From positions 1 through 64,000 of the forward strand of contig NZ_PJMU01000001.1 of assembly GCF_002846395.1 (NCBI RefSeq): a DNA stretch of 64,000 bases. The letters are read 5' to 3'. The number at the start of each line of letters is the position of its first letter. Positions within the stretch are counted from its first letter, which is position 1. Below are positions 1 to 64,000 of this stretch, piece after piece. The DNA is from Pontibacter ramchanderi (GTDB lineage: Bacteria; Bacteroidota; Bacteroidia; Cytophagales; Hymenobacteraceae). A model generated the notes under the pieces. That model saw nothing but the letters and a program-made list of their open reading frames with translations. It had not been told where the DNA came from and made no database searches. The position numbers and the translations under genes are program-made.

Positions 1-165
1 CTATGCTTAGTGTTTTCATATACCATCATGTTTTAGTGGCGAAGGATAACATTGATTACAAAAGTTCTAGTCTATACATTCGTTTAAACCCAACGGCTTG
101 TATAAAAGGCGAACGAGGCATAGCCGAAGTATGACTTGTATACCTTGTTGGCATGTGCCTTTTTA

Positions 166-897
166 TTACTTCTGTTCCATGTAGAGATTCCAAAGCTCTT
201 GTATTGGCACAGCCTTTCTGCTTACCTTATTCAAATCCTTACCTTCTGCTATCCAGAGAAAAGGGAAGCAATGGATGCCTTTCTTACCATCAACTTTTTT
301 TACTTCTTCTCTCCAGTTTTCCCACCTGAGTCCTTCATAAAATTTATCGATGTTACCTGCAAAACAAAAGGATATAAAATCAGAGTAACCTATTCCTAAT
401 GACTCCCACTCCAGATTGTCAGGCGAAAAGTAGAATACCTTCCCAATCTCTTCCTGCCCGAATGCTCCAGCATTTATGGCAAAGAAACCACCAAGCACAT
501 CATCAGCTACCAAAAGAAATGAGGGCTGTTCTCCATCATTCGTATAAGACTTTCCCCTGTTCCACTCCATGATGCTCCTGTCAAGCTTCGCCGAACCTGA
601 GCCTAAGATGCGTATCCAACCATCATCAACCAGTATGCCGCCAGATTCATAAACGATTGCTCCCATCGGTGAGCGGGTAGTGACTTGTAACTGTAACAGG
701 GCGTTCTCCGCCTTCTGCTGTTGTTTAGGTAGAACTTCTACTTTGTTACTCGCTACTTTTAACCAGTCCTGCACTAAAGTCCATCCTGAGTCTTCTTTGT
801 TTATAAGCGCTGATAAAGGGCGAGGACTGCTGCTCTGTGCATTAGCCATAGTTAAAGAAGATAAAAGCAGAAAGGTGGATACAACTATCTTTTTCAA
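166..897 (-). CDS. Secreted DUF2625 family protein
   Basis: Protein of 243 residues with a clear signal peptide (about residues 1-20, ending ANA-Q), so it is exported. The body matches what I recall of the DUF2625 family: the segment 'LQVTTRSPMGAIVYESGG' followed by 'DDGWIRILGSG', 'LLVADDVLGGFFAINAGAFG' and 'GYSDFISFCFAGNIDKFYEGLRW'. The family has no established biochemical role, so no function is given. It starts with ATG directly after a 5' region that carries a small dyad (933-948). It is a lone gene, followed on its strand only by the window edge; the recombinase gene lies upstream on the same strand, 160 bp away. Family assignment is from recognition of conserved blocks; exported location is from the signal peptide. 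Confidence 0.8.
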   Translation of the reverse strand: MKKIVVSTFLLLSSLTMANAQSSSPRPLSALINKEDSGWTLVQDWLKVASNKVEVLPKQQQKAENALLQLQVTTRSPMGAIVYESGGILVDDGWIRILGSGSAKLDRSIMEWNRGKSYTNDGEQPSFLLVADDVLGGFFAINAGAFGQEEIGKVFYFSPDNLEWESLGIGYSDFISFCFAGNIDKFYEGLRWENWREEVKKVDGKKGIHCFPFLWIAEGKDLNKVSRKAVPIQELWNLYMEQK

Positions 898-932
898 TTC
901 ATGATTCAGGTTAATGCCAACTACGTGCTAGC

Positions 933-948
933 AGGAGTACCTACTCCT
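933..948. promoter_or_regulatory. Small dyad upstream of the DUF2625 gene
   Basis: AGGAGTA-CC-TACTCCT is a perfect 7-bp inverted repeat with a 2-bp centre, 36 bp upstream of the DUF2625 start codon. It could be an operator or simply chance; no regulator gene is adjacent. Confidence 0.25.
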
Positions 949-1059
949 ACTATCTGCACTATGTGCGGAGTACTGTTTGGCTCTTTTCTACATGGTCGTT
1001 CAATTTGGGAGCCTGTTATTTTCGTCTTTTCCATAGCGTTACACTAATATAGTTCTTTT

Positions 1060-2514
1060 CTACAGATTGTCAAGCGGGCTCACTATTTTGTCCAGTGCAT
1101 AGGTCGTTACATGCGTGTAAATCTCCGTGGTCTTGCTGCTGCGGTGCCCTAGTAGGGTCTGGATGTAACGCAAATCGGTGCCCTGCTCCAGCAGATGCGT
1201 GGCAAAGGAGTGCCGTAGGGTGTGCGGGGTGGCGCTCGTCTTCACCCCAGCCTTTTTGCGGCAGGCCTGAAACACGTTGCGCAGGCTGTCGGCCGTGTAC
1301 TGGCCCCCGAACTGCCCCTCAAAGAGCCACTCCTTTGGCCTGTACTCCTTGTAGTACAGCCGCAGGTTCTCCAGCAGCTTCTGCGAGAGCACGGTGGTGC
1401 GGTCCTTTTTGCCCTTGCCCCCGCGTATGAGCAGCAGGTTCCTGTCCGACTTCACATCGCTGAGCCTTAGGTTGATCACTTCCCCGATCCTGAGCCCGCC
1501 GGCATACAGCAGCTGCAGCATGCAGCGGTGCTTGAGGTTGTCGGTGGCCAAAAGTATTTTCCTGACCTCCTCTTTGCTGAGCACGGTGGGCAGCCGCTCT
1601 GGCTTCTCGGGGCGCTCCACGTTATGGAGCTGCACCTCGTGGCGACCCAGCACCCGCTGGTAATAGAATTTAACGGCGTTGATCGACTGGTTAATGAACG
1701 AGCAGGAGTAGGCCCCGGCCTGCACCATCTGCCGGTGGTACTGATTAATGTCCTCTTCGGTAAAAGCGTTTACCTGCTCCATCCCCCTGCCTTTGTGGCT
1801 GTTAAGAAAGCGCAATAGCAGCGAATGGTAGGTGCGGATCGTGTTCATGGAGTAGTTGAGCAGGAAGAGCTTCTCCAGGTAGTCGATCGGGCAGGTGATA
1901 TAGTCTGCGCCTTTGCTGTAGGTCTGCTCCCAGAGCCGGCGCAGCAGCAGCACATCGCGCACCACCAGCTCCTGACTCAGCCACAGCCAGCCCAGGCCCT
2001 CCAGCTCCTCGGCCAGCTGCTGTATGTGCTGCCCGCCCTCTGGTATGGCGAAGCACTTGGGCTCGCGCTGCCAGGTGGCCAGCCTGCTGTGCCGCAGGGT
2101 CTCGTATACCTGCTGGCTGTAGCGGAAGGTAACGCTGATCACGGTCTTGTTTTCCTCCACCAGCATCGGCTGCAGCTTCACCACCGGCATGTCGGGCAGC
2201 TTTTGGAGCGGTTCGCCCTGCTGCCCTCCAGCCAGTACCGGCACCAGCTTGCTAGGCTTCAGTCGTTTGGGACGATAAAGATATTGTGTGCTCACTTTCG
2301 CCAACCCCTGAAAGTGCGTGAAGGTCATTTCCATGCTTTGCGGCCGGTGGTGCATCACGAAGCACTTGTAGGTCTTGCTGTACTTGATCCAGCCAGCCTC
2401 CTTCAGCCGCTTTACGATAAATGGGTTAGGCTTGTGCCACAGACGGATGTATTTAACGCCTTCATGCTCCAAGGAGTTGAGATAAATAACAGGCTGATTG
2501 GATGGATATTGCAT
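1060..2514 (-). CDS. Tyrosine recombinase / phage-type integrase
   Basis: Site-specific DNA recombinase of the lambda-integrase/Xer superfamily. The C-terminal catalytic domain shows the family residues: Arg in 'GGLRIGEVINLRL', Lys in 'RGGKGKKDRT', His-x-x-Arg in 'PHTLRHSFATHLL', His in 'LLGHRSS' and the Tyr nucleophile in 'TEIYTHV'. Before it lies a SAM-like core-binding domain ('YHSLLLRFLNSHKG', 'INQSINAVKFYY'), and an extra N-terminal region of about 200 residues that I do not recognise and that is common in Bacteroidota recombinases of this size. I prefer the ATG at 2514 (484 aa); the frame is open to an ATG at 2556 (498 aa). It faces the Zn-ribbon gene divergently across a region with phased TACCCG repeats. 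No phage, transposon or integron cassette genes are visible, so it is a stand-alone recombinase whose target is unknown. Confidence 0.9.
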   Translation of the reverse strand: MQYPSNQPVIYLNSLEHEGVKYIRLWHKPNPFIVKRLKEAGWIKYSKTYKCFVMHHRPQSMEMTFTHFQGLAKVSTQYLYRPKRLKPSKLVPVLAGGQQGEPLQKLPDMPVVKLQPMLVEENKTVISVTFRYSQQVYETLRHSRLATWQREPKCFAIPEGGQHIQQLAEELEGLGWLWLSQELVVRDVLLLRRLWEQTYSKGADYITCPIDYLEKLFLLNYSMNTIRTYHSLLLRFLNSHKGRGMEQVNAFTEEDINQYHRQMVQAGAYSCSFINQSINAVKFYYQRVLGRHEVQLHNVERPEKPERLPTVLSKEEVRKILLATDNLKHRCMLQLLYAGGLRIGEVINLRLSDVKSDRNLLLIRGGKGKKDRTTVLSQKLLENLRLYYKEYRPKEWLFEGQFGGQYTADSLRNVFQACRKKAGVKTSATPHTLRHSFATHLLEQGTDLRYIQTLLGHRSSKTTEIYTHVTTYALDKIVSPLDNL

Positions 2515-2569
2515 CTTGTTTTGAATTAACAACCGCAAATAAACACCTAAATCCAAAGCAGCCGTAAAA

Positions 2570-2614
2570 TACCCGGGTAAGTCCGGCTATACCCGATTTA
2601 GCCGGGTGTACCCG
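2570..2614. promoter_or_regulatory. Phased TACCCG repeats and dyads between divergent genes
   Basis: TACCCG occurs at 2570, 2590 and 2609, i.e. spaced 20 and 19 bp, about two helical turns. The first is part of the 10-bp palindrome TACCCGGGTA (2570-2579), and between the others lies the inverted repeat CCGGCTA-N9-TAGCCGG (2583-2605). The block sits between the divergent recombinase and Zn-ribbon genes, where an operator or recombinase accessory-site role is plausible. Confidence 0.5.
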
Positions 2615-2630
2615 TATAAAACAGAAAAAC

Positions 2631-3005
2631 ATGGAGGAGAGAACTTGTGAAAACTGCGGTGAGGTGCTGAAAGGCAGAATTGATAAGCGGTACTGCAGCG
2701 ACCAGTGCCGTTCAGTAGCCAAAAACAGCCGAAAGACCCAGAATGCAGGTGAGCGCCTGATGAAGGAGATCAACAACAAGCTGCGCCACAACCGCTTCGT
2801 GTTGCAGCGCCACAGCCCCGAGGGCAAGACCACGCTCAGGCGGGAGGTCCTCCAGCTGGCAGGCTTCGACTTCCGCCACTTCACGCACCTCTACCGCACC
2901 AAACAGGGCAATACTTACTACTTCTGCTACGATTATGGCTACCTGCTGCTCGAGGACGAAAAGGTGCTCATCGTGAACTGGCAGCCCTACATGGAGAAGA
3001 GCTAA
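2631..3005 (+). CDS. Zn-ribbon small protein
   Basis: 124-residue protein starting with a CxxC...CxxxC zinc-binding ribbon: 'CENCGEVL' then 'KRYCSDQCRSVAK', like the DUF2116-type ribbons of Bacteroidota. The rest is basic and then ends in an aromatic-rich segment ('RTKQGNTYYFCYDYGYLLLEDEKVLIV'-like; quoted here in part only as 'YYFCYDYGYLL'). The fold suggests nucleic-acid or protein binding, but no function is established. It is divergent from the tyrosine recombinase and separated by the TACCCG array, so shared regulation is possible. It ends at a bidirectional terminator shared with menB. Confidence 0.75.
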   Translation: MEERTCENCGEVLKGRIDKRYCSDQCRSVAKNSRKTQNAGERLMKEINNKLRHNRFVLQRHSPEGKTTLRREVLQLAGFDFRHFTHLYRTKQGNTYYFCYDYGYLLLEDEKVLIVNWQPYMEKS

Positions 3006-3020
3006 GGTAATCCTTAACAA

Positions 3021-3050
3021 AAAAGCCGCTCCAAAACGGAGCGGCTTTTC
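3021..3050. terminator. Bidirectional terminator, Zn-ribbon gene / menB
   Basis: Perfect 9-bp stem AGCCGCTCC / GGAGCGGCT (3024-3032 and 3038-3046) with loop AAAAC, an A-run before and a T-run after. It serves the + strand Zn-ribbon gene and the - strand menB. Confidence 0.85.
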
Positions 3051-3074
3051 TATTCTATACCTGCAGGCTATACC

Positions 3075-3917
3075 TTATGGGATCCACTTGATGTCTGAGA
3101 AGTCTGGTTTGCGCTTCTCCAAGAAAGCATTGCGGCCCTCTTTGGCTTCGTCGGTCATGTAGGCAAGGCGGGTGGCTTCGCCGGCAAACACCTGCTGGCC
3201 TACCATGCCGTCGTCAGTCAGGTTGAAGGCGAATTTGAGCATCTTAATTGAAGTAGGGGACTTGGCCAGGATTTCCTGAGCCCACTCGTAAGCGGTGTCC
3301 TCCAATTCGGCGTGCGGGATCACGGCGTTCACCATGCCCATGTCGAAAGCGTCTTGTGCAGAGTAATTGCGACCCAGGAAGAAGATCTCGCGGGCGCGTT
3401 TCTGGCCCACCATTTTGGCCAGGTAAGCCGAGCCGTAGCCGCCGTCGAAGCTGGTCACGTCGGCATCCGTTTGCTTGAAGATCGCATGCTCTTTGCTGGC
3501 CAGCGTGAGGTCGCATACCACGTGCAGCGAGTGTCCGCCGCCCACGGCCCAGCCCGGCACCACCGCAATCACCACTTTTGGCATAAAGCGGATCAGGCGC
3601 TGCACTTCCAGGATGTTCAGGCGCGGCATCCCGGCCTCGTCCACATAACCCTGATGGCCGCGGGCGTTCTGGTCTCCGCCACTGCAGAAAGAGTAAACAC
3701 CGTCTTTGGTAGAAGGCCCCTCGGCCGAGAAAAGCACCACCCCAATGGAGGTATCTTCGCGGGCATCCAGGAAGGCTTCGAACAACTCCGCTACCGTTTT
3801 GGGGCGGAAGGCATTGCGCACATTGGGCCTGTTGAAGGCAATGCGGGCCACACCGTTAGATTTTTTGTAGGTAATGTCTTCGTATTCTTTAACTGTTACC
3901 CAGTTGGCTTTGCTCAT
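3075..3917 (-). CDS. menB: 1,4-dihydroxy-2-naphthoyl-CoA synthase (menaquinone synthesis)
   Basis: Crotonase-superfamily enzyme that closes the ring of o-succinylbenzoyl-CoA to give 1,4-dihydroxy-2-naphthoyl-CoA in menaquinone synthesis. The 280-residue length and the MenB-type blocks are all present: 'VARIAFNRPNVRNAFRPKT', 'YSFCSGGDQNARG', 'VVPGWAVGGGHSLHVVCDL' and 'DADVTSFDGGYGSAYLAK', the last typical of MenB rather than other crotonases. The ATG start gives the usual MenB N-terminus. It is monocistronic here, with no other men genes in the window, bounded below by the shared terminator. Upstream (3918-3983) a TTTG and a TAATTTTA box about 20 bp apart make a plausible promoter. Confidence 0.95.
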   Translation of the reverse strand: MSKANWVTVKEYEDITYKKSNGVARIAFNRPNVRNAFRPKTVAELFEAFLDAREDTSIGVVLFSAEGPSTKDGVYSFCSGGDQNARGHQGYVDEAGMPRLNILEVQRLIRFMPKVVIAVVPGWAVGGGHSLHVVCDLTLASKEHAIFKQTDADVTSFDGGYGSAYLAKMVGQKRAREIFFLGRNYSAQDAFDMGMVNAVIPHAELEDTAYEWAQEILAKSPTSIKMLKFAFNLTDDGMVGQQVFAGEATRLAYMTDEAKEGRNAFLEKRKPDFSDIKWIP

Positions 3918-3983
3918 TATCGTCAGTTTTTGTTGTAAAATTATCGCATTTTCAGCTTCACAGCAAACTTTGCCGCCAGTGGC

Positions 3984-4847
3984 TTAACTGTTCAGCCTAA
4001 TGGTCAGGTCTTTCCTGGTGAATTTTACGAGATGCGGGAAATCTAAGGTATAGAGGTCGCCCGCCGCTTCGTGCTGGTAGGCCTCTCCAAAAATCCGAAG
4101 CAGGCTGTCGTATTTCTGGTGCATGTCCTTGCTGCTTGCATGCAGTTCTACCACCAATTGCTTGATGTCGGGTAAACGTCCAGATTCGCGCAACTCGGTC
4201 AACAGTTGAAACTCGGCGCCTTCAATGTCCACCTTCACAAAATCGATTTGTTTGTTTTCGGGGAGCAAGCCGGACAGCCTGCAGGCCTGCAGACGCTGTT
4301 TGGTGCCTTTGGCAATGGCGGGGTTAAGCGAACCGTTCAGACCGGCTGTGGCGGCAGGGATGTAGAAGTCTACTTCGCCCTCGGTATCTGACAGCACAAG
4401 GTTAAACAAGCGTATACCTTTCAATTTGTTGGCTTCCACGTTGCGTTGCAGCAAGGCAAAGGCATCCGGGTTCGCTTCAAAGGCCCATACCTCGCCATCG
4501 GGGTACAGCTGCTTAAAATAGAGCACCGACATCCCAATATTAGCGCCGCAGTCAACAATAAATGGCCTTTCGGTGCCCGACTCAAAGCGGTAAACCTGCT
4601 TGATGAAAATATCGGTGTAAAGCTCTGTTAAGGTTACGTAGCTATACCCTGCTATTGTAAAGCCTTCCAGTTTTAATGGAATTAGTCCGCCTGTCTTCTT
4701 GCTGAGCTTGGCCTCGGCATGGATGCGAAGCAAGGTATAGAAGGTGTGCAGTCGGCCTGCCAACTGCGTGTTCTGTCGGCTAAAGGCAAGCTTCCATAAC
4801 CTGAAAAGTGTCAGCATACGCGCGGTGGTTTTGTGCGTGTCTGGCAA
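3984..4847 (-). CDS. FkbM family SAM-dependent methyltransferase
   Basis: 287-residue protein with the FkbM methyltransferase core: 'FIVDCGANIGMSVLYFKQLYP' is the SAM-binding motif I, 'GEVWAFEANPDAFALLQRN' motif II, and 'KQIDFVKVDIEGAEFQLL' the conserved VDIEGAE block. FkbM-type enzymes O-methylate sugars or other small molecules; the substrate cannot be read from sequence. No glycosyltransferases or polysaccharide genes are next to it. The ATG at 4847 gives a basic N-terminus, and no signal peptide is seen, so it should be cytoplasmic. Confidence 0.88.
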   Translation of the reverse strand: MPDTHKTTARMLTLFRLWKLAFSRQNTQLAGRLHTFYTLLRIHAEAKLSKKTGGLIPLKLEGFTIAGYSYVTLTELYTDIFIKQVYRFESGTERPFIVDCGANIGMSVLYFKQLYPDGEVWAFEANPDAFALLQRNVEANKLKGIRLFNLVLSDTEGEVDFYIPAATAGLNGSLNPAIAKGTKQRLQACRLSGLLPENKQIDFVKVDIEGAEFQLLTELRESGRLPDIKQLVVELHASSKDMHQKYDSLLRIFGEAYQHEAAGDLYTLDFPHLVKFTRKDLTIRLNS

Positions 4848-5160
4848 TGGCTATACCTGACACAAAGGCTCCTGTACCACGAAGGTACGCTTTATCGGGT
4901 AAATGCCGCTCATCCGGCCCCTGCACTTCACCCGACATTTTGTCGGTTGCTATACCTTTGGCTTTTTGTTTGCAGAAGTACTAGCTTTAGCGCAAGGCTA
5001 GCTACGGTAGGTAGCAGGGCAAAATCAGTTGCAGGAATGCAGGTGAGTCAGGAGTTTTAACCAAGGTATAATCTGTATATCCAGCGTCTTTTGTCCTTTG
5101 TCTAAAAATTCTTTTGTCACAAAACAGCCGTATACCTTTCACATAAACCAACACACAGCA
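4848..5160. other. Intergenic region with four TATACCT/AGGTATA words
   Basis: No gene seen. It separates the divergent FkbM and hslV genes and carries the TATACCT word at 4852, 4951, 5064 (as AGGTATA) and 5131. No convincing full promoter was identified. Confidence 0.5.
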
Positions 5161-5703: not shown

Positions 5704-5720
5704 GCTCCGATAAAGCGCAC

Positions 5721-6290: not shown

Positions 6291-6351
6291 TTTTTTAACA
6301 TTTGTTAAATTTCTTCTGCCCCGTAGTCCCGACCTTTGTAAAAAAAGCGAA

Positions 6352-6669: not shown

Positions 6670-6696
6670 GAGGGGTAGGGATGTCGTTTTAAAGCT

Positions 6697-6704
6697 TATA
6701 TTTG
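6697..6704 (+). promoter_or_regulatory. -7 box for the deoxyhypusine-synthase-like gene
   Basis: TATATTTG fits the Bacteroidota -7 consensus TAnnTTTG and lies 80 bp upstream of the start codon. I do not see a clean -33 TTG at the right spacing. Confidence 0.5.
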
Positions 6705-7755: not shown

Positions 7756-7776
7756 GTTTCAAATAGCATAACAGAG

Positions 7777-9187: not shown

Positions 9188-11791
9188 TTACTGATCACTG
9201 TTTCCTGATAAAATCGTATTCGACCGGAAGACATGGTCCGTGGCCTGCAGAATCTTACCCTTTAGCTTGGGGTTGTAATTCGGGTGCTCGGCCAGGAAAG
9301 TGCGGATCGTCTCGGCGGCCGTTGGGGTTTGGTAATAACCAAAGGTTGATTGCAGCCAATTGGTCGGAAAGAAAATATCGCCGGTGAGCTGTATTTCCTC
9401 TACCAGTTCCAGACTCTCGCGCAGGTACTTCTCGGATGAGTCTACGCGCAGCGGGTGATGCAGGTAGGAGAGGGCCGTGCCAACCCAGGCCTCCTTGTCG
9501 CGGTTGCTGCGGTCTTTGAGCGAGGCGAAGAAGGCGTCGCGTACCTGCTCATCACCCGATAGGGCCGGCAGCAGGAACTGCAGGCGCTTCTGGCGGTCCG
9601 GGTTCTTGATCCGGGTCAGTTGCTGGCGCAGTATACCTTCCGAGTCAGTGTAGTCGCGCACGGCCAGCGAGAGGGCGAGCGAAGTATAGTCGTCTTCGTT
9701 GAGCGTGACACCCGCAGGGGCCTTTTGTGCCTTCCATACCTGGAAAAGGCGGTCTTGTGCCCCCTTGGTCAGGGCAATGTGCTGGTAGGTTTTGAACAGT
9801 AGCTTTTTGGTGTTGCCGGATGATTGCTTCTCCATCGCATCCCACAGGTTTTTCTCAATGGCAGGAGCTATTTCCAGGCGTCTTTCTGGGGTCGTAAATC
9901 TCCAGAAGGTATCACCTAGATAGCCCGTCAGCAATTTCAGATTGAGTTCATCGGTCTCCACGCTTGCCTCCAGCATCATAACGGGCAGTAGAGAAGCAGG
10001 GGTCACTTGCCGATTGTTGAGCATGTTTTCGTACAGGTTGATGTACATAGAGGCGCGCATGACCGGATTGTGCAAACGTTGACTGATACCTGACCTGTAG
10101 CGCAGATCAACCGGGAACACGCCGTAGCCTTGCCCGGAAGAGTTGAAAAGCACAGTGAGCGGAGCGCGTTTCCCAATAGCTTCTGTTAGTGCTACAGCCG
10201 CCTTGTCCATGTTCACGGTGAGTTCCTGCACAGAGTCCGCATACACCAGCGCGACTTCAAAGAGCTGTGGCCAGAGGCGGTCTGAGCCGTCTTCAGCTTT
10301 CTGGGAAACCGCAAAGGAGCTGATCTTGCCGTCTTCCACTTTCAGATCGTAGTCAAATACTGGCCGGCCCGGCTCGTTCACCCATACCTGGTTCCAGGCC
10401 TGCAGGTCTACCGGCGTACGGGCGTCCAGGATCCCGATCAGCTGCGGCCAGGTGGCGTTGCCGTTGGCGTAGGTTTTCAGGTATACCTGCAGCCCTTCCT
10501 GAAAGGCTTTTTCGCCCATCAAGCGCTCCAGTTGCCGCATCATGATCGGGGCTTTGTGGTAGATAATGTGCCCATACAAAGTGCCGGCATCCTGCAGATT
10601 GGCAAGGTCCTGTCGGATCGGGTTGGCGCCAGCGGTGCGGTCCACACTGTAAGCTGCCGGGAAATGGTCGATCAGGAACTTGAGATCATAATTGCTGTCC
10701 TGTACTGTCGTTTTGGAGATTTTGTCGGCCATAAAATTGGCAAACACCTCTTTCATCCACACATCATTGAACCAGCGCATCGTAACAAGGTCGCCAAACC
10801 ACATGTGCGCCGTCTCGTGCGCGATCAGGTTAGAGCGGGCCACGAGTTGGTCCTTGGTAGCGCCTTCGTCCAGAAAGAGGGTAGAAGCCTTGTAATCGAT
10901 CGCGCCCACATGTTCCATGCCCCCATACTGGAAATCAGGTATAGCCACAAAATCGAACTTCTGGAAAGGGTAGGGGATTTGGGTGTAATCCTCCATGAAA
11001 TCCAGCGCATCGCGGTGGATGCTGAAGATCGGTCCGATGCTCCTGAGCTTATCCTCATCAGTTTCGCGATGGTAGAAGTGCATGGCGCGGCCACGCTCGT
11101 TGTTGCTTACCCTGCTGAAATCGCCTGCCACGAAAGAAAAGAGATAGGTCGGGATGGTATCGGAAGGCTGGTAGGTATAAGTCTTGGTGGCACCGGTCAG
11201 CACCGAGTCCTGCAGTGGGGCATTGGCCAGGGCTTTCCAGTTTTGGGGTAGCGTGAGCGAAAGTGTGAATACGGCTTTCAGATCCGGCTGATCGAAGCAG
11301 GGAAACACTGTGCGCGCCCGGTCCGGTACGAGCAAGGTATAGAGGAAGTCTTCGTTGCGGTTAAGTGAGAGGTTACCGGCCGTAAAGTCGATCTGCACGC
11401 TGTTCGTACCAGCTTTTAGCAGTTTTGGGCTTATAACCAAATGTTCGTTCTGGAACGTGAGCGGGGCCTCGCTTCCATTCACCTTTAAACCATGCAGCAT
11501 TTCTGGCTTCTCCTTGAAGTCGATTTGAAGAGGCTGGCTCAGGTCAGAAAGGTCGAAGGTAATTACTTCGGTAGAAGGTATAGGCGCGTCTTTCCCGACC
11601 GGTATTTGCAGTTTGATATTATAATGCACGTTTCGCAGTGTCTGGCTGCGGTGCTCAGCCAGCTGTTGCGAAACACCCGTCTCGACGGGCAAGGTATAGC
11701 TGCTCGAGGCAGGGCCTTTGCTGCAAGCGCCAAGCAGCAGGAGCGACAGGGCCGCCGCGCTTAAGGTATAGTTCAGGTGGTTCATTTGCAT
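9188..11791 (-). CDS. M1 family aminopeptidase, lipoprotein
   Basis: 867-residue zinc metallopeptidase. Lipobox 'LLLLGACSKG' with the lipidated Cys at residue 23 puts it in the periplasm or outer membrane. The catalytic domain has HExxH ('LIAHETAHMWFGD') with the third zinc ligand Glu 18 residues on ('WMKEVFANF'). The exopeptidase motif reads 'GGMEHVGAIDY', a variant of the usual GAMEN. An ERAP1-like helical C-terminal domain fills the last ~350 residues. M1 enzymes remove N-terminal residues from peptides, so a role in periplasmic peptide use is likely. Single gene, no operon partners; ends at the shared terminator. Confidence 0.92.
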   Translation of the reverse strand: MQMNHLNYTLSAAALSLLLLGACSKGPASSSYTLPVETGVSQQLAEHRSQTLRNVHYNIKLQIPVGKDAPIPSTEVITFDLSDLSQPLQIDFKEKPEMLHGLKVNGSEAPLTFQNEHLVISPKLLKAGTNSVQIDFTAGNLSLNRNEDFLYTLLVPDRARTVFPCFDQPDLKAVFTLSLTLPQNWKALANAPLQDSVLTGATKTYTYQPSDTIPTYLFSFVAGDFSRVSNNERGRAMHFYHRETDEDKLRSIGPIFSIHRDALDFMEDYTQIPYPFQKFDFVAIPDFQYGGMEHVGAIDYKASTLFLDEGATKDQLVARSNLIAHETAHMWFGDLVTMRWFNDVWMKEVFANFMADKISKTTVQDSNYDLKFLIDHFPAAYSVDRTAGANPIRQDLANLQDAGTLYGHIIYHKAPIMMRQLERLMGEKAFQEGLQVYLKTYANGNATWPQLIGILDARTPVDLQAWNQVWVNEPGRPVFDYDLKVEDGKISSFAVSQKAEDGSDRLWPQLFEVALVYADSVQELTVNMDKAAVALTEAIGKRAPLTVLFNSSGQGYGVFPVDLRYRSGISQRLHNPVMRASMYINLYENMLNNRQVTPASLLPVMMLEASVETDELNLKLLTGYLGDTFWRFTTPERRLEIAPAIEKNLWDAMEKQSSGNTKKLLFKTYQHIALTKGAQDRLFQVWKAQKAPAGVTLNEDDYTSLALSLAVRDYTDSEGILRQQLTRIKNPDRQKRLQFLLPALSGDEQVRDAFFASLKDRSNRDKEAWVGTALSYLHHPLRVDSSEKYLRESLELVEEIQLTGDIFFPTNWLQSTFGYYQTPTAAETIRTFLAEHPNYNPKLKGKILQATDHVFRSNTILSGNSDQ

Positions 11792-17696: not shown

Positions 17697-18580
17697 TGGT
17701 TTTGGTGCGGGCGTCCACGCTCGTGTTTACTGTCGTGTGGCCTCTGGTCGAGGTGAAGCTGGTAGCACAGCTATACCTATACCTGGCGTAGCTGTTGCTT
17801 AGCTATACCTTAACTGTTTTGTTCTATAGCTTCGCCTGTGCGGCGGGCACTTCCTTTTTGTCTTGACACAAAAAGGAAGCAAAAAAGTCAAGACCCTCCA
17901 AATCGAGGGCCCCTACCCCCACTCGCTGACCGCTCTTGACAGGGGGACCCCTTCACCCCCAACAGTGGAGTGTCGTAAAGTGCACCTGGCTAAGGTGATT
18001 TGTAGCATAGCCCAATGGGCAAGTTAGTCTTTCGATGCGTGGCAGTGGTTTGTGAAAGTAACTACAGCGCCTATACCTGTTGGTTGGCAATTAAAGGGAA
18101 GTCCCACTTAGGGAAGGGGCCCTGACAAAGAAGGGGGCAGAGGATTGTTAATTGTGCACAGGTATGCAATAGCTATACTGCCTATACCTGTAAAATGACA
18201 ATGGCAGAAGTTCCGCTCTTAAAGTAGGGCCTTCTACAACAAGACAGGAAGGCGGGTATTAAATCTCAAGATAATATCCCTACCAACAACTTTTATAACA
18301 ATACAGAAGCTGCCACCCTCCTGCTTTGTGCTAATCCAACTCTCACTGGCAAAGCAGATCAGGCACAACAAATCCAGCAAGCGGTATAGGAGACAATTTC
18401 AATAACGGACAAGCTGCTGATATTAGATCCGGATTGTGCTATTCCTGTGCCATTATGTTGACAGTCAGGGCGTGGTTTAATATTTAAGCAATTTTTAATG
18501 CAAAATGCAGGTATAAGAAAATTGTACTTTGAGATAAAGTGCTGATTTGCTATATTGATCCGCATTCGAACCTGAACCCT
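17697..18580. other. Long intergenic region with extragenic repeat copy B
   Basis: No gene seen in 884 bp. It holds six TATACCT/AGGTATA words (17772, 17778, 17804, 18072, 18183, 18509), the repeat copy B, and a partial word dyad ACAGGTAT/ATACCTGT (18158-18165 and 18184-18191). Confidence 0.6.
17822..18062 (-). repeat. Extragenic repeat, copy B (inverted partner of copy A)
   Basis: Reverse complement of copy A. Conserved pieces in order on the + strand are a CTTTTTGTCTTGACACAAAA block (with nested dyads CTTCCTTTTT/AAAAAGGAAG), GTCAAGACC, AATCGAGGGCCCCTACCCCC, ACTCGCTGACCGCTCTTGAC, AGGGGGACCCCTTCACCCCC AACAGTGG, GTGCACCTGG, GGGCAAGTT and CGATGCGTGGCAGTGG. No coding potential. It lies 125 bp beyond the ABC-F stop codon. 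Confidence 0.85.
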
Positions 18581-31830: not shown

Positions 31831-31872
31831 AAACCCGTTGCTATACCTGCGACAAGGTATAGCAACGGGTTT
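31831..31872. terminator. 18-bp stem hairpin with TATACCT words
   Basis: AAACCCGTTGCTATACCT (31831-31848) and AGGTATAGCAACGGGTTT (31855-31872), perfect over 18 bp, loop GCGACA. A- and T-tails on either side allow termination in both directions (below the phosphoesterase gene on the minus strand). Its inner stem is the recurrent word. Confidence 0.8.
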
Positions 31873-41270: not shown

Positions 41271-44200
41271 TTATTCTTCTTCTTTGATGACTTCTTCTAC
41301 TTTTTGTTCAGCTTCCTGCTCTTCTTTGCGCTTCTCCTTTCTGTTAAACTCTATGGCTTCTTCCAGGCGGCGTTCTTCTCGGCGGATCTCCCGTCTCTCG
41401 AGACTGCGGAACAGATCCGAGAAGTTGTCGTAGTCGCGCACGAAGATCAGCGCGAGGCCTGTGGCCCGTACATCGCCCTCCAGAAAGCCTTCATACTGGT
41501 TGCGTTGAAAGCCACGCACCCGCAGACGGCCGTCTTTTGTAAGCGAATACTCCACCGACACGTCGCCGCCGAAGCCGCCCATGTTGCGCTGCTGTTCGTT
41601 CTGGCCTTCCAGTCCGATGTCCGTACCGACGCGCACCGTCAGGCGGTCGTCCAGGAACTGCTGGCGCATGGCTACGTTCAGGTCTGTTCTGCCTTCGGCC
41701 GAGCCCGATGAGTAATCTTCGTAAGAGCTGACACCCAGTTCCAGGCCAAGCCCGCCGGCATAGCGGTTTGTCAGCTGGTTTAGCTGATCGGTCATCACCT
41801 GGCTGAGGCTGTTGCGGGCCGTAGAGCCCAACCCGCCGCCACCGGAACTGGCCAGCGGGTCCTGCGCCAGGAAGCGCCCCAGAACCAGAAGCGAGAACAC
41901 CTGCTTGTTCAGCTCTGATTCATCCTGGCGCAAGGCGGCCAAGCGGCTCTCAACGGTACCATCCAAGGCCCCGCGCCGTTGCTCCTCCAGTTGTATGTCA
42001 AAGCCGATCTCGGGCTTAAGCAGCTCACCGTTCAGATTTACAAAGACTTCGAACGGCAATTGGTTGCGGTAACGGTTAAGGGAAGCCTGGTCTGCATCCA
42101 CCTGGTCGACCACGAGTTCCATGGGGGCCGCCTGTAAGCGGTAAATAGCGGATATCTGCATGTTGGCCTGCATCGGATCACCGGTCCAGTTGATGTAGCT
42201 GCCTTTGGCAATGTCGAGTTGCCGCGACACCAGGTCATAGAAGTCCATGCTATACCTGCCTTCTGTTATTTCGTAGCGGCCACTCATACTGATCTGCCCA
42301 CTCGGGGTGATGCCGATGTACAGCGGGGAGGCGCTGCCGCGCACTACCAGGTTGTCGCCCGTGGTCGGGTCGATGACAATGGTGACAGTGGTCGCATCGG
42401 TCACGGTGATCTGGGCATCAATATTGGCCCCTACAAAGCCGGCGGAAGTGGTTTCCTCAATTGCCCGCTGCAAGATGGCGTTGAGGGAATCGTTTAGTGT
42501 GACGTATTCTACCACCCCGTCGCGCTCTGCCGCGGCTACGCCATCTGCCGGGATCACGGTGGTGAAGGTGGAGCCGTCGAGCACGGTGACAAACACCTCA
42601 ATGTTCGGCTCAAGCATACTGCCGGTGATGGCAGCCTTCATGGCCATCTGCACATTGCCGTAAAACAGGTCGTTGTCGTTGGCAGTGGAGTTCATGGCCA
42701 GGAAGCGGTCGGTTCGGGCGCGCAGATCAAAGGTGTAGTCAGTATAATTTTGAGTCAGGATCTGCCCGTTGATGTCGAGTGTATTGCCCAACGAGTCGGT
42801 CAGCGTGAAGTCGCGCATGCCGATGCCCCGCTCGTTGAACTCCAGCCGCTCGTTCTGCAAGGTATAGCGTGTGTTGAGCATGGTCGGGTTGAACTGCGCC
42901 TCGTTGAAATCCAGACTTCCCCGAACGGCAGGCTGTGTGAGCGGGCCGGTGATGCGCAACCTGCCGTTGGCACTGCCGGCCAGGTCCTTCACCATACCTT
43001 GCGTGAAGCCGCCAAAGGAGGCCAGGTTCAGATTGGCAATGTTGGCATCCAGGTTGAGCAGGCTGGTTTCGGGCTGCATCTCGTAAGTGCCGCTAACAAG
43101 TACTTCGTTGCCATTTCCGGTGAGCGCCATGTTCAGGTTGTAGCGGTTGGCGCCTGCTGTGTTGGCTTTCAGGGCGATGTCACCGATCGGTATACCAGTG
43201 TAGGCGAACTCGGTCAGTGTAAGGTCTGCCGTGAAAGCAGGGTTGCCGGCCATCAGGTCTGTGACGGTGGCTGTGCCGTTCAAAACACCGGTCATCACGC
43301 TGTCCTGTTGCTGAAACGAAGCCATGATCTGACCGATCTCAAGGTTGCCGAACTCTACCTGCAGGGGTGCATTGGAGCTTACCGGGCCGGTGCTGTTCAG
43401 GAGCAGGTAATTGCCGTTGCGTTCCAGCCGGATGTTCTGCGCATAGAGCAGATTCGTATCGAACTGCAGGTAATTGTCTTGCGGTACGGACCACGCTTCC
43501 CCGTTGATTACGAGCTGCTCCGGGTTAAAGGCAAAACGGTAGCCTGGCCCGAGGCTGTTGAGTACGCCACCTACCACAAACTGCTCTACGCTGTCGGTGC
43601 CGGCTATGGCCAGTCGTGTGACAAGGTCATTGTCGCGGGCGGCCCCGTTCAGGTTCACGTTGTTGAGGAGCAGGGAAGGGGAGCGGATTTCGCGCACCCC
43701 CAGATCATAGCCCATCTGTTCGCGGTTGCCACGCACCTGCAGGGCCATATCCCGGATGTTGTATTCGGTATAGGTGAGCTGGCTAACATTTGCATCCATG
43801 GCGAATTCCTGCGTTTCGCCGTTATAAGATGCCGTAACCGGACCGTTTACCTGCAAATCTTCCAGACCAGGCACAAACGAGGCAATGATATCCGGGCGTC
43901 GGACCAGCATCGTGGCTTCAAAGTCGCCCAGATTCAGGTTGGCCGGGTAAGGCGGATCGGGTTGCAGGTCGAAGTAAGCGGAGAAGTGCTTGGCCAGCGC
44001 AGTGGGTAGTTCTGCCAGGTCGTTTGCGAAACGCATGTCGGCGTTCAGGATGCTGGAGTTAAGTGCAATCGCTGTGCCCGGCATTTTCTGGTTCAGAGTC
44101 AGTTGCAGCGAGTCGATCGGGTAGGAGACACCCTGCAGGCGCACCCGCACCTGGTCCCCCTCTAGTGTGCCGCTTATATCGCTGGCGTCCTTGCCGGCAA

Positions 44201-46328
44201 AGCGTCCGCGCAGTTGGCCCCGTATACCCAGGTCCTCTTCGTAGAAATTGAGGGCTTTCAGATCCACACCTTTCAGGTCCAGGTCAAAGACATACTCACC
44301 CCGCTCGGTATTGCGCAGGTTAAAGTCGCCTTTCAGGTCAAAGTTCAGGTTCTCGTCGCGGGCGCGGGCCGCCACCTGGTACAGGTTACGATCGATACGG
44401 GCATCCACATCCACATTATTATAGGCGTAGTTGTTGTAATTCGCTTCTTTGATGCGGGCTTTCACATCGGCGCGCATGGTTTCAGGACTCAGGCCTGTGC
44501 CCTGCGCGGTCGCCTCGAACGCAACCCGGCCCACGCCATAGTCCTCGGTAAAGAGCTGCTTCAGATCAAAGCCGGATGTCCTGACCGTCGCCCGGAAAGG
44601 CTCGGCACCTGCGGGACCTGCGTCCATGTCTACCACGGCATTCAGGTTGCCGAAGGAGCTGCTGATGGCCGCGTTCAGATCGAAGTTGGTGAGTGTGCCG
44701 CTATACCTGCCCGTCATGCTCAGGTTGTTGGGGATCCTGATCTCAGGCGGAATGGTACCTGGAGGAGCCAATGCCAGGATGTCGGTACGGGTGGTGGCAA
44801 GGCGGTTGATGTCGAGGTTCATGGACAGGCGCTCAGGGTCCATGGCGTTGCGCACGTTGCCTGTCACGTTCACGGTGGTGCCCTGCAGACCCGCTACCTG
44901 CAGCTGCTGAATGCTGATGTTGTCCAGCCGGCCCTGTGCGCGACCGTCCAAACGTATGGTGGAATTGGCGATCTTGCGGAACGATGGGTTGTCGGCGAGG
45001 TTGGGTGCGAATATAAGCGCATCCTGCATGCCGATGCGCGAGTTGTCAATGTCAAGGTCCAGTTGTACGGCGTCCAGGTTGTCGGTCAGGTCATCCCAGG
45101 AGGTATAGCGCAGGGCCAGGTCTTTGCTGATGCGGCTGTTGCCAGTCTGCAGGTCAAGGTCGGCCAGTCGGGCGTGGGTCGAGTCCAGCGTGATAGCCGA
45201 CTGGAAATTGTTGACCCGGAACCCGCTTTGCTCTTCGAGCTTGAGCTGGTTGAGCTGCATGCCCATCTGGTTCAGGCTATACCTGACGTCCTCGGCATCC
45301 AGTTCGATGTTGGAGAAACGCAGGTGGTTGTAGTCCATGCCTCTTTTCTGGCGCGGTGCGTCGGCGTTATCCATACCTGCCTCCAGGCCGGTCACGTTCA
45401 GCTTGCCCAGGTTCACAACCCACTTCACCGGCTGTCCCTGCGTCTTCTCCACCGACTCATCAAGCTTGCGTATGGTTTCGGCCGGGTTTACCGCCAGCGA
45501 GTCGGTCGGTTTCATTTTCTCCTGCACATAAAGCACTTTCGAATTGTGCAGATCGAAGCTGCGCAGGTCAATACGGGCGTTCGGCAGATCGATGTTATCG
45601 ACGGTCAGTTCCGACTTGCCTAGTTTCAGCTCGATGCGCTGGTCGGCAGGTATACTGACGTAGTTCAGGCCAAAATTTTCAACTTCCACCCCGTTCATGC
45701 CAAAGTTAAAGGTGATCGGCTGCGGCTCTTCGTCGGGCGGAAGCTTGGTCTGTACATAGCTTATACCTGTGTTGCGCAGTTCAATTTCATCCAGGCGGTA
45801 GATCTCCTCCTCCAGGTTCAACTCTTCCATGGTGGTGGTGAGCTGGCCGACCCTGGCCCTGATGTGGTTGCCCCCCGCCTCATCGTTGAAGTTTACATAC
45901 ACGTTTTCCAGGTTGATCAGCCCCAGATCAAACTGCATGGCGCCAGTTGTGTCGGCGGGCTGAGAAGCGGTGGTATCGGTGGCGAAAGCCTCGGCCAGAA
46001 AGTCGAAGTTGGAAGTAGAGTCGGGTCGGATGTGCAGGTTGAGCGTGGCCTGCTGCAGGTCTATTTTGCTGATGTTCACTGTGCCTCTCAGCAACGACCA
46101 TATTTTAAGGTCCAACCCCAGGCGCTGGCTATACCAAAGGGTATCCTGCTGCTGGTCTTCCAGGTATACATCCTCCAGCACAATGGCATTGCGCCAATCC
46201 GTTTTGAAGCGGCCGATCTCCACCCGGGTATCGAGCATGCCGGCCAGGTATGAGGCCCCTTTTTGGGCAGCAAAATTTTGCACTTTCGGAATCTGCAGCG
46301 CGATAATGATAAGCAATAACAAGCCCAC
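41271..46328 (-). CDS. tamB: TamB: translocation and assembly module inner-membrane protein
   Basis: 1685 residues from GTG 46328. An N-terminal membrane segment ('LLLLIIIALQIPKVQNF') is followed by a very long beta-helical region that spans the periplasm and a C-terminal DUF490 (TamB) domain near 'SAEGRTDLNVAMRQQFLDDR' and 'RVGTDIGLEG'. The protein ends in a charged Glu/Lys coiled segment. TamB/AsmA-like proteins form lipid- or protein-conducting bridges to the outer membrane. The start is uncertain: the frame stays open 30 codons further upstream, through a more complete membrane helix, but has no ATG, GTG or TTG there. It is cotranscribed with tamL, 13 bp downstream. Confidence 0.92.
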   Translation of the reverse strand: MGLLLLIIIALQIPKVQNFAAQKGASYLAGMLDTRVEIGRFKTDWRNAIVLEDVYLEDQQQDTLWYSQRLGLDLKIWSLLRGTVNISKIDLQQATLNLHIRPDSTSNFDFLAEAFATDTTASQPADTTGAMQFDLGLINLENVYVNFNDEAGGNHIRARVGQLTTTMEELNLEEEIYRLDEIELRNTGISYVQTKLPPDEEPQPITFNFGMNGVEVENFGLNYVSIPADQRIELKLGKSELTVDNIDLPNARIDLRSFDLHNSKVLYVQEKMKPTDSLAVNPAETIRKLDESVEKTQGQPVKWVVNLGKLNVTGLEAGMDNADAPRQKRGMDYNHLRFSNIELDAEDVRYSLNQMGMQLNQLKLEEQSGFRVNNFQSAITLDSTHARLADLDLQTGNSRISKDLALRYTSWDDLTDNLDAVQLDLDIDNSRIGMQDALIFAPNLADNPSFRKIANSTIRLDGRAQGRLDNISIQQLQVAGLQGTTVNVTGNVRNAMDPERLSMNLDINRLATTRTDILALAPPGTIPPEIRIPNNLSMTGRYSGTLTNFDLNAAISSSFGNLNAVVDMDAGPAGAEPFRATVRTSGFDLKQLFTEDYGVGRVAFEATAQGTGLSPETMRADVKARIKEANYNNYAYNNVDVDARIDRNLYQVAARARDENLNFDLKGDFNLRNTERGEYVFDLDLKGVDLKALNFYEEDLGIRGQLRGRFAGKDASDISGTLEGDQVRVRLQGVSYPIDSLQLTLNQKMPGTAIALNSSILNADMRFANDLAELPTALAKHFSAYFDLQPDPPYPANLNLGDFEATMLVRRPDIIASFVPGLEDLQVNGPVTASYNGETQEFAMDANVSQLTYTEYNIRDMALQVRGNREQMGYDLGVREIRSPSLLLNNVNLNGAARDNDLVTRLAIAGTDSVEQFVVGGVLNSLGPGYRFAFNPEQLVINGEAWSVPQDNYLQFDTNLLYAQNIRLERNGNYLLLNSTGPVSSNAPLQVEFGNLEIGQIMASFQQQDSVMTGVLNGTATVTDLMAGNPAFTADLTLTEFAYTGIPIGDIALKANTAGANRYNLNMALTGNGNEVLVSGTYEMQPETSLLNLDANIANLNLASFGGFTQGMVKDLAGSANGRLRITGPLTQPAVRGSLDFNEAQFNPTMLNTRYTLQNERLEFNERGIGMRDFTLTDSLGNTLDINGQILTQNYTDYTFDLRARTDRFLAMNSTANDNDLFYGNVQMAMKAAITGSMLEPNIEVFVTVLDGSTFTTVIPADGVAAAERDGVVEYVTLNDSLNAILQRAIEETTSAGFVGANIDAQITVTDATTVTIVIDPTTGDNLVVRGSASPLYIGITPSGQISMSGRYEITEGRYSMDFYDLVSRQLDIAKGSYINWTGDPMQANMQISAIYRLQAAPMELVVDQVDADQASLNRYRNQLPFEVFVNLNGELLKPEIGFDIQLEEQRRGALDGTVESRLAALRQDESELNKQVFSLLVLGRFLAQDPLASSGGGGLGSTARNSLSQVMTDQLNQLTNRYAGGLGLELGVSSYEDYSSGSAEGRTDLNVAMRQQFLDDRLTVRVGTDIGLEGQNEQQRNMGGFGGDVSVEYSLTKDGRLRVRGFQRNQYEGFLEGDVRATGLALIFVRDYDNFSDLFRSLERREIRREERRLEEAIEFNRKEKRKEEQEAEQKVEEVIKEEE

Positions 46329-57904: not shown

Positions 57905-57975
57905 AGCTGTGCTGTAGGTATAGGATTTTAATTCAAAGCTTATTTATAATGTCAATGCAGGGTGCTATACCTGTG

Positions 57976-59586: not shown

Positions 59587-59809
59587 AGTTTGTTGGTTTC
59601 GTGTGCCGATCGGCCATGAGCCGATCCACTTATTAAATTTCCGTGTACGATAGAATCAGCAGGCCAGGTATAGATTTGCCCTAAAGTACAGCTGTTCCAG
59701 GTGTTGTGGCCACTGGCATAGTTGCAACCTACTCTTGCGCCCTCAAGGTATAGGGACAGCCTGAACCAGACAACAGCGCCTGCGTTATAACTAACTGATC
59801 TGGAAAGCT

Positions 59810-60040
59810 ATGGAGCAAAGTTTCTCATCCTTTTTCACGGGCCTTGGCCTCATCGGCATCCTGACGGGAATCGTGTTGCTGGTATTTGTGGTGTGGAGCG
59901 TCATCTGGTCTTATTACGATGCCCGCCGCAGGGGCAAGTCTCCCTGGTTGGTGGCCCTGATGGTGCTGCTCATGGTATGGCCTGTCGGCCTGGTGCTCTG
60001 GCTACTGCTCCGGCCCATGAAGCCAGAGCGGCAGGTATAG
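59810..60040 (+). CDS. Small membrane protein with two spans
   Basis: 76 residues with two hydrophobic segments ('GLGLIGILTGIVLLVFVVWS' and 'LVALMVLLMVWPVGLVLWLL') flanking a basic loop ('YYDARRRGKSPW') and a basic tail. The layout resembles short PLDc_N-like membrane proteins, but no catalytic motif is seen. Converges on the GNAT gene (1 bp gap between stop codons). Confidence 0.65.
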   Translation: MEQSFSSFFTGLGLIGILTGIVLLVFVVWSVIWSYYDARRRGKSPWLVALMVLLMVWPVGLVLWLLLRPMKPERQV

Positions 60041-60041
60041 C

Positions 60042-60320
60042 TTAGTCCCAATTTACGATGTCATCGTACTCTTTGTGCCGCTTCACGTAGGCTTCCACGA
60101 CAGGGCAGGAGGGCACGATCATGCATTTGCAGGCCCTGGCATGCTCCAGGCCCTCTTTCACCAGTCGGTCGGCTATGCCCTGGCCGCGGTGTTGCTCGGG
60201 CACATAGGTATGGTCGAAGTCCATGTGGCCATTGTCGGTGATGGTGTAGGTGAGCTCGGCCTCGCCGCCATCGAGGGTCATGTAAAAGCGGGTGTCTTCT
60301 TCGTCGTGAATGATTTCCAT
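60042..60320 (-). CDS. GNAT-like N-acetyltransferase (YjdJ-type)
   Basis: 92 residues, the small GNAT branch. The acetyl-CoA-binding segment 'YVPEQHRGQGIADRLVKEGL' and 'CMIVPSCPVVEAYVKRHKEY' are typical. It is one of the short acetyltransferases in the YjdJ group; substrate unknown. Ends next to the small membrane protein gene, convergent. Confidence 0.87.
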   Translation of the reverse strand: MEIIHDEEDTRFYMTLDGGEAELTYTITDNGHMDFDHTYVPEQHRGQGIADRLVKEGLEHARACKCMIVPSCPVVEAYVKRHKEYDDIVNWD

Positions 60321-60488
60321 GGGATTGGGTAAGTGGTTCGGAACAGGTATACGTCCGGCCGGTGTAAGGTGTTAACAGATCCGTTTCGGGAGAAATTAAT
60401 TTTTAATGTAATTTGCAGACAGATATTTATAACCCGTGGCGGATTGATGGAGTACAATCAGCGGTCCCTCACTATTCATCCCTTATAA

Positions 60489-62660
<2,172 letters not shown>

Positions 62661-62702
62661 GCTTGCGTTTGAAAAAGGATTTTTTGACAAAAGACTAAAG
62701 AC

Positions 62703-62740
62703 AAAGAGCGCCGTGCAGGAATGTGCGGCGCTCTTTTTTT
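62703..62740 (+). terminator. GH97 gene terminator
   Basis: Stem AAAGAGCGCCG / CGGCGCTCTTT (62703-62713 and 62726-62736), 12-nt loop, T-run after. Confidence 0.9.
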
Positions 62741-62810
62741 GGCTATAATCGAATTATTTTAAGGTATAGTTTGTATCTTATTGATATGTAAACTTTTAGC
62801 CATTTTACCT

Positions 62811-63005
62811 ATGAACCCAGACGAATTTGAAGAAAATTATACGCAAATCCTTCACACCCTCCTAAAGGCTTTTGCCAACAGCTCTGAAGTGGCGCCCGGA
62901 AAGTTTTTCGACCTGGCCAAGACCATCGAAAACCTGCGTGAGGCCAGCCCTGCGCTTTACGAAGCCATCAAAACGTTAGAAGACGAAAAACGCGAAGCCG
63001 CTTAG
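62811..63005 (+). CDS. Hypothetical 64-residue protein
   Basis: From the ATG at 62811 (MNPDEFEENYTQILHTLLKA); an upstream ATG (62781) adds ten less typical residues. Helical, acidic, no membrane or signal segment, no family recognised. The AGGTATA word (62762) lies upstream. Confidence 0.6.
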   Translation: MNPDEFEENYTQILHTLLKAFANSSEVAPGKFFDLAKTIENLREASPALYEAIKTLEDEKREAA

Positions 63006-63053
63006 TTTCAGACCAGGCTAACAGTGCTGTAATAACCTGTATGAACAGGGCTT

Positions 63054-64000
63054 TTACAGCACTGTCAGCTTTTTGGTGATCAGGCCCCGCTCCGTCTGTA
63101 TCTGCAGGAAGTACAGACCTGCTTTGGCAGAGGGCAGGTTGATTTCTACCGCCTCAGGTCTCGGACCGGCGATGTGCGTCTGGTGCAGGCGCTTGCCCAG
63201 GGCATCGTATACCTCTAATCTTTGCACGTCAAAGTCGGCGTGGCGCAGGCTAACTGTAAACTCTCCCTTGTTTGGGTTCGGGTAAATACTGATCGCCTCA
63301 GCTGGACTTAGCTCCTCCACTACAAAGTCGGTGCTGCTGTGAGCTTTGCCGCCGAAACCCGTAATGGTCACTTTGCCGGTAGAAGCGCCCCTTGGTACCC
63401 GCACTTTATACTTGTTGCCTTCGCTCTCCAGCACCAGCGCCTGCTGCCCGTTAAAGGCAATCACATCCTGCTGACCCATGATGCCGAAGTGCTCGCCGGA
63501 GATTTCTACAACTGTTCCCACCATGCCTTTACCTGGCTGCATGGCCGTAAACTTTGGTCCCGGAATCACCTCAAATAGGGTAGCGGCTGTTGTTTTTCCT
63601 CCAGGCGTCTCCAGCGAAATGAAGCCCGACTCGGCACCTTCCGGTACTCGCACGGTTAGTTGCTGCGTGCTCGCCTCGAGTACCTCCGCCAGAGCCTGTC
63701 CAAAGCGGACCTTGTTGCGTGTCTTGTCTGTAGCAAAGTTCTCACCCCTGATCACGATACTTGCGCCAACAATGTCGGTCTCTTTGCTTATCCCTGTTAT
63801 ACCTGGGACATACCACACGGCATAGGCTGAACTACTAATTGCTTCGCCACCTTTGGTATTGATCTGGAAGCTGCCTGTCCTGGCTTCAGCCGGCACGCGC
63901 ACCGTTACTCTGCTTCCGTTGTTGCTTAGGATCTCACAAGACAGATCGCCGAGTCTGATTTCTTCGATCAGTTCTGCCTGCAGGTGTTCGCCGGTAAGTG
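63054..64000 (-). CDS. Secreted IPT/TIG-repeat protein with T9SS sorting domain (partial)
   Basis: The 3' part of a gene whose 5' end lies beyond the window edge: the frame is open to position 64000. The visible 315 residues hold IPT/TIG-type Ig-like repeats ('VPGITGISKETDIVGASIVI' with 'RGENF', 'AMQPGKGMVGTVVEISGEHF', 'RVPRGASTGKVTITGFGGKA') and end in a type IX secretion C-terminal sorting domain ('ISIYPNPNKGEFTVSLRHAD', then 'AKAGLYFLQIQTERGLITKK'). So the protein is exported across the outer membrane by the T9SS and probably anchored or released at the cell surface. Total length and the N-terminal activity are unknown. Confidence 0.9.
   Translation of the reverse strand, partial: LTGEHLQAELIEEIRLGDLSCEILSNNGSRVTVRVPAEARTGSFQINTKGGEAISSSAYAVWYVPGITGISKETDIVGASIVIRGENFATDKTRNKVRFGQALAEVLEASTQQLTVRVPEGAESGFISLETPGGKTTAATLFEVIPGPKFTAMQPGKGMVGTVVEISGEHFGIMGQQDVIAFNGQQALVLESEGNKYKVRVPRGASTGKVTITGFGGKAHSSTDFVVEELSPAEAISIYPNPNKGEFTVSLRHADFDVQRLEVYDALGKRLHQTHIAGPRPEAVEINLPSAKAGLYFLQIQTERGLITKKLTVL

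Follow-up and report, generated by a model that had tools for sequence, protein, structure and literature searches.

The DNA uptake sequence of Neisseriaceae, DUS, was described as having eight dialects around a constant core, with one genome carrying two dialects (accessible portion of Frye 2013), and as stringently conserved, occurring at permissive core sites and absent from recently acquired genes (accessible portion of Treangen 2008); the latter source also presented spread by drive versus selection as a self label as an open question for uptake sequences. The uptake sequence of Pasteurellaceae, USS, was used as terminators in Haemophilus (available text of PMC5217627), and the parts of PMC7811141 and PMC1939737 that were accessible named uptake sequences only for Pasteurellaceae and Neisseriaceae. 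The HIPs were palindromes linked to specific methyltransferases, HIP1 being dense genome-wide in cyanobacteria and replaced by alternates in some species (available text of Elhai 2015). Within Bacteroidetes, Riemerella transforms with ComEC, DprA, ComF, and RecA plus proteins unlike known machinery, such proteins being used at the outer-membrane step (available text of PMC8459023).

The window, i.e., the whole stretch of 64,000 nucleotides analyzed here, was from Pontibacter ramchanderi and contained AGGTATA/TATACCT 100 times (Table 1): 51 AGGTATA and 49 TATACCT as spelled on the + strand. The 100 dinucleotide-preserving shuffles of the window gave a mean of 3.79 (sd 2.06, maximum 9) and none reached 100, while simple arithmetic on base composition alone gave about 7. 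A preliminary description had reported about 99 copies against an expectation of about 7; the exact count is 100, the expectation agreed with our recalculation, every coordinate quoted for the word was recovered in the full position list, and the palindrome placed at 10478 was found as AGGTATA at 10479 and TATACCT at 10482. The Omp85-family gene of the window served as the single-copy marker for locating orthologous regions in 50/50 genus genomes, and its adjoining 1685-aa ORF was used in codon alignments.

Table 1. Words and marker genes in the 64-kb window (first bases are given for single words)
Feature	Position	Strand	Basis or remark
AGGTATA/TATACCT set, 100 words	139..63804	both	exact search
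AGGTATA, part 1	4046, 4733, 5064, 5190, 6540, 7416, 10479, 10937, 11173, 11335, 11576, 11692, 11764	+	
AGGTATA, part 2	11915, 12381, 14932, 17560, 18509, 19398, 20548, 21313, 21517, 23754, 30914, 31269, 31855	+	
AGGTATA, part 3	32476, 33513, 38669, 38830, 38846, 42860, 45101, 45648, 46162, 47281, 48308, 48358, 50789	+	
AGGTATA, part 4	51365, 53422, 56132, 57024, 57616, 57916, 59666, 59746, 60033, 60345, 62132, 62762	+	
AGGTATA (TATACCT on +), part 1	139, 2105, 3056, 3069, 4413, 4852, 4951, 5131, 6058, 7125, 9632, 10482, 12402	-	
AGGTATA (TATACCT on +), part 2	14906, 17772, 17778, 17804, 18072, 18183, 22281, 25243, 25665, 26552, 26994, 27093, 28071	-	
AGGTATA (TATACCT on +), part 3	29097, 29214, 31842, 31940, 32753, 34348, 35779, 37806, 38858, 42251, 44702, 45278	-	
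AGGTATA (TATACCT on +), part 4	45762, 46651, 53743, 56058, 56771, 57335, 57482, 57966, 61836, 63208, 63798	-	
AGGTATACCT, overlapping word pair, orientations opposite	10479..10488	both	within palindrome CAGGTATACCTG starting at 10478
Overlapping word pair, same orientation (TATACCTATACCT on +)	17772..17784	-	position list
Word pair in opposite orientation, 13 between first bases	31842..31861	both	position list
Omp85-family gene, 793 aa	38876..41257	-	Pfam PF01103
1685-aa ORF adjoining the Omp85 gene	41271..46328	-	TamB-like by position and size only

The whole genome (4,427,107 bases in 14 contigs, the window being C1:1-64000) harbored 3,973 forward and 3,895 reverse copies of AGGTATA, 7,868 in total or one per 563 bp, against 120 + 110 = 230 for the word read backwards as control. 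The codon test was applied to 367.5 kb (window plus L001-L016) with coding sequences taken by a simple longest-ORF rule: 436 coding words were observed against a mean of 55.1 and a maximum of 63 in 20 synonymous-codon shuffles within genes, and codon usage thus failed to account for the word. Density in this sample rose from 1.42 words per kb inside coding sequences to 2.79 per kb outside them, all six frame/orientation classes were occupied (26 to 104 words each), and the coding words comprised 248 antisense and 188 sense ones. Spacing was near random (595 gaps, CV 1.11); close pairs (≤40 bases) numbered 62 against 41 expected and were split evenly over the four orientations, whereby inverted-pair terminators were rejected. 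The favored unit is the DNA word itself, and the earlier suggestion of pressure on the word rather than on codons was borne out by the shuffles and the six occupied classes; the genome-wide count upheld the enrichment, and the spacing and genome-wide spread showed that the word is no single local repeat.

The motif profile was derived from 862 sites in the own genome and in nine stretches from other AGGTATA-clade genomes. The base before the word (-1) was rarely G (8%) and commonly C (52%), the base after it (+7) was rarely T (3%) and commonly G (54%), and C was favored at +8 (44%); the unit was graded and slightly longer than 7 bp, only the adjoining bases being informative beyond the core. 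A palindromic word was rejected, AGGTATA differing from its own complement. One-off variants at the first letter were enriched 3.0-5.5 fold and AGGTATG 4.4 fold, and variants of the central T and A stood at 0.55-1.28 fold. This gradient is compatible with an uptake sequence but not specific to one, because graded one-off enrichment was described both for uptake sequences and for other frequent words (available text of Bakkali 2007).

The words of the window were aligned in 11 same-clade genomes, and 177/259 were exact, against 13-28% per genome for all 7-mers. At 21 coding sites, the exact word was present in 112/142 comparisons in which the three encoded residues were constant; for the 11 sites having matched controls (same phase and same residues without the word), 46/65 were exact against 8.0 expected, and all non-word 7-mers stood at 33%. 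The word is kept beyond the level of its surroundings. Between dialects, most word places turned over: another dialect's own word was found at 8/52 AGGTATA places in a genome of that dialect. Strong in-place conversion between dialects is not claimed because of this direct table, the ratios of the pairwise conversion test being inflated by a nearly empty shifted control.

Pontibacter is a member of Hymenobacteraceae, the family named in the preliminary description, and copies of three words were tallied across the 50 genomes of the genus: (i) AGGTATA, with 5,748-9,303 copies in 12 genomes and 720-3,132 in the remaining 38; (ii) AAGTATA, with 4,114-11,818 copies in 23 genomes and at most 2,905 in the others; and (iii) AACTATA, with 3,531-13,168 copies in 8 genomes and at most 1,969 in the others. 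These main words were abundant in 39/50 genomes (AGGTATA in 12, AAGTATA alone in 19, AACTATA alone in 4, and AAGTATA plus AACTATA in the 4 genomes G159, G161, G191, and G195), leaving 11 outside; word density across dialect genomes was one per 330-770 bp, and TATA or TATG followed by not-T was common to the three main dialects in the 39 genomes. G181 contained ATATATA 74 times against 2.4 expected (60 kb), and G187 contained AGGTATA 41 times and CGGTATA 42 times against about 3 each (59 kb). The genus has several dialects, three main and probably five (AGGTATA, AAGTATA, AACTATA, TATATA-type, and [AC]GGTATA). An unbiased search over 40-60 kb of each of nine other Pontibacter genomes, which a rare or long word could escape, found no clear word; G163, one of these, displayed weak AAGTATA (32 against 6.6).

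The dialects were clustered on the ComEC tree of 50 genomes, on which the seven labels required 10 changes against 27.4 after shuffling: a branch (68/99) set the AGGTATA genomes apart, with the AAGTATA genome G178 close by, and AACTATA genomes together with three two-dialect genomes fell on another branch (100/100). When genomes were ranked by Omp85 identity to the own genome, the other 11 of the 12 AGGTATA genomes came first (77-90%), and the next one stood at 67%. In 154 genomes from the family's other genera, the count of AGGTATA did not rise above roughly 3 times that of its control, and no comparable word was seen in ten 20-kb stretches of four other genera. As side observations, GAGGTAGA had 16 copies in 40 kb of G179 (L148, L197), where 0.6 were expected, being either another word or a local repeat, and eight genomes having no clear word (G154, G160, G174, G176, G179, G182, G183, and G193) were 5.2-6.5 Mb in size, large for the genus, compared with 3.8-5.5 Mb for the 39 in which the main words are abundant.

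Among 68 stretches from word-bearing genomes, two (L044 and L005) had less than half of the expected words. L044 (P. virosus G194, G194:C1:20001-40000) contained 1 word against 31 expected in 20 kb, carried genes for a MobA/VirD2-type relaxase, heavy-metal efflux, MerT, an MmeI-type restriction-modification enzyme, and AbiEii, and is a mobile island; word scarcity in acquired DNA is represented by this one clear island, a single 20-kb stretch. L005 (1-20000, from an AGGTATA genome) covered a core cytochrome oxidase cluster and had 13 words against 35 expected, and its paucity counts against the simple rule that foreign DNA is word-poor. The word-poor part of L021 (8827-20000, from the AAGTATA genome G152) had ORF sizes and order very similar to those of L005 and is probably the same cluster. 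The longest other word gap, 8.1 kb in L046, lay mostly inside a 2,398-aa ORF.

The observations to be accounted for were enrichment, site conservation, clade dialects, two-dialect genomes, weak or no polarity, the word-poor island, and competence genes. On genome comparison, a DNA uptake sequence with AGGTATA as its core is the probable explanation, and the same likely reading has most Pontibacter species naturally transformable now or until recently; reading of the word in uptake, a receptor, molecular drive, and competence are what we infer under it. A putative receptor would prefer double-stranded DNA bearing [not G]AGGTATA[not T], and the word-bearing DNA would cross the inner membrane via ComEC and be recombined in, aided by DprA and RecA. 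As relatives' word-bearing DNA is taken up and recombined again and again, the word would accumulate and be preserved at permissive places, an accumulation that would constitute molecular drive, perhaps plus selection for self recognition, and a shift in receptor specificity, chiefly affecting letters two and three, would allow a new dialect (AAGTATA, AACTATA) to spread.

The Pontibacter words and the neisserial DUS shared thousands of strand-balanced asymmetric copies and clade dialects around a constant core, but they differed in phylum, in sequence, and in core length (7 bp in Pontibacter and 10-12 bp in the DUS); moreover, the DUS is read by the pilin ComP, whereas no full-length type IV pilus ATPase was found in Pontibacter. 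The USS was likewise a short asymmetric word with thousands of copies in coding and non-coding DNA, but it has more extended flanks, those in Pontibacter being informative over only 1-2 bases. Inverted-pair terminators, known for DUS and USS, had no sign in Pontibacter. The USS sequence AAGTGCGGT was unrelated (available text of PMC5217627). Strong site conservation was common to the DUS and the Pontibacter word (available text of Treangen 2008), and two-dialect genomes numbered four in Pontibacter and one, Simonsiella muelleri, for the DUS (available text of Frye 2013).

Two rival explanations invoke a protein acting on the resident DNA, and both are improbable to the same degree. One of them has an asymmetric methyltransferase (orphan, type III, IIG, or BREX-like) marking the word, with methylation-linked repair or function creating and keeping it and with dialects following changes in the target domain of the enzyme. 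It draws on HIP1, the best known non-uptake word having alternates in some species, which is likewise very dense genome-wide (available text of Elhai 2015), and on matches to PF07669 (Eco57I) in 38/39 genomes rich in the main words; HIPs are palindromic, however, AGGTATA is asymmetric, and the methyltransferase link of HIP1 had no parallel in PF01555, which was rejected as the common cause because 13/39 word-rich genomes lacked it, among them the four that had AACTATA as their only main word. In this survey of two methyltransferase families, PF01555 and PF07669, the latter also matched in 8/9 genomes without a clear word, and many matches were partial, in frames of 72 to 1,869 aa, so that no one shared PF07669 enzyme was evident from these unaligned matches. 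Conversion to one word would moreover deplete one-off forms, most of which were enriched. The resemblance to HIP1-type words raised in the preliminary description is therefore less supported: density and alternates speak for it, but palindromy and the PF01555 link are missing. An uptake sequence fits better than HIP1 because of the dialects, the two-dialect genomes, and the scarcity in the mobile island.

The other of these two unlikely explanations has the word read on the cell's own DNA by a chromosomal protein, be it RecBCD/AddAB, a condensin loader, or a nucleoid protein. The word is Chi-like in being asymmetric, species-specific, frequent, and scarce in one island (L044), and AGGTATA was slightly in excess on the G-rich strand (743/1,393, 53.3%, z 2.5). 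Chi and KOPS words are clearly polarized along the replichore, whereas the Pontibacter words were hardly so, the two other dialects having 657/1,373 (47.9%) and 453/942 (48.1%) on the G-rich strand; this orientation test used 15-38 stretches per dialect, and GC skew was weak (mean 0.02) and thus a weak proxy of replication. Chi in E. coli is also far sparser than the one word per 330-770 bp seen here. That codon or amino-acid usage, or else a single local or mobile repeat, produced the word as a side effect is hardly conceivable: certain residue strings were frequent at words (Leu-Tyr-Leu at 48/436 and Val-Tyr-Leu at 32/436), but the excess over shuffled codons, the occupation of every frame, and the higher non-coding density argue against usage, and informative flanks of only 1-2 bases per side and genome-wide dispersal argue against a repeat.

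Returning to the uptake-sequence reading, we lean, less firmly than towards that reading as such, towards an independent Bacteroidota system having three main (probably five) dialects and a non-pilus putative receptor of a new kind, which would represent a third origin of uptake sequences. Among the open-access titles and abstracts listed, none described a frequent word or an uptake sequence for Pontibacter or other Bacteroidetes. The question of drive versus self label has so far been studied in two families. Pontibacter, whose 50 sequenced species include several dialects, intermediates carrying two of them, and relatives in which no word stands out clearly, would repeat the case independently in a different phylum. 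Such a system would further offer a handle on the DNA receptor of Bacteroidetes competence and a guide to marking donor DNA for Pontibacter genetics.

The competence machinery was surveyed in the same 50 genomes, no record of competence in Pontibacter having been found among the open-access papers listed. ComEC (PF03772) and DprA (PF02481) had matches in 50/50 genomes, and an HHH protein (ComEA-like) of 304-346 aa was listed for 49/50, G167 having pieces of 87 and 75 aa. In G167 and G186, several stops plus a frame change interrupted ComEC with neighboring genes open, and DprA was broken in these two genomes only (broken competence loci: L196, L208, and L209 in G167; L192 and L207 in G186); the HHH protein of G186 was open, and ComEC of G184 was split over two frames, perhaps by an assembly error. 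The co-loss of ComEC and DprA suggests one dispensable pathway, kept by most Pontibacter. Evidence for word decay after competence loss was mixed: G167 had AAGTATA at about 1,000 per Mb, the lowest in its nine-genome subclade (others 1,240-2,310), yet its one-off excess per word equaled that of its sister G171 (1.28 and 1.27), and G186 had AGGTATA at about 2,020 per Mb, the second highest of 12, so that decay was not established. The presence of ComEC and DprA does not decide the uptake reading, because the nine genomes without a clear word retain both.

Only fragments of the type IV pilus motor PF00437, spanning about 60/370 positions, were found in each of the 50 genomes, three of which were barely over the cut-off (25.0-25.9 against 24.9 bits) with the same ~60-position fragment; no type IV pilus motor was therefore seen, and a pilus route was rejected for want of a full-length ATPase. 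No gene among ComEC neighbors (19 neighborhoods, four as reference) was both shared by all word-rich genomes and absent from word-less ones. We know of no uptake word in Riemerella anatipestifer, which is likewise a member of Bacteroidetes. A pilus-free route is plausible because Riemerella, of the same phylum, transforms with proteins unlike known machinery, and ComEC, DprA, and an HHH protein occur in both (available text of PMC8459023). Its DUF5689 family differed in distribution, being found in 22/50 Pontibacter genomes and absent from the own genome, and was rejected as the receptor. The DUF5689 proteins (L166-L175) came in two size classes: twelve genomes had short forms (413-450 aa) and ten had long forms (1,099-1,299 aa), five of these ten lacking a clear word.
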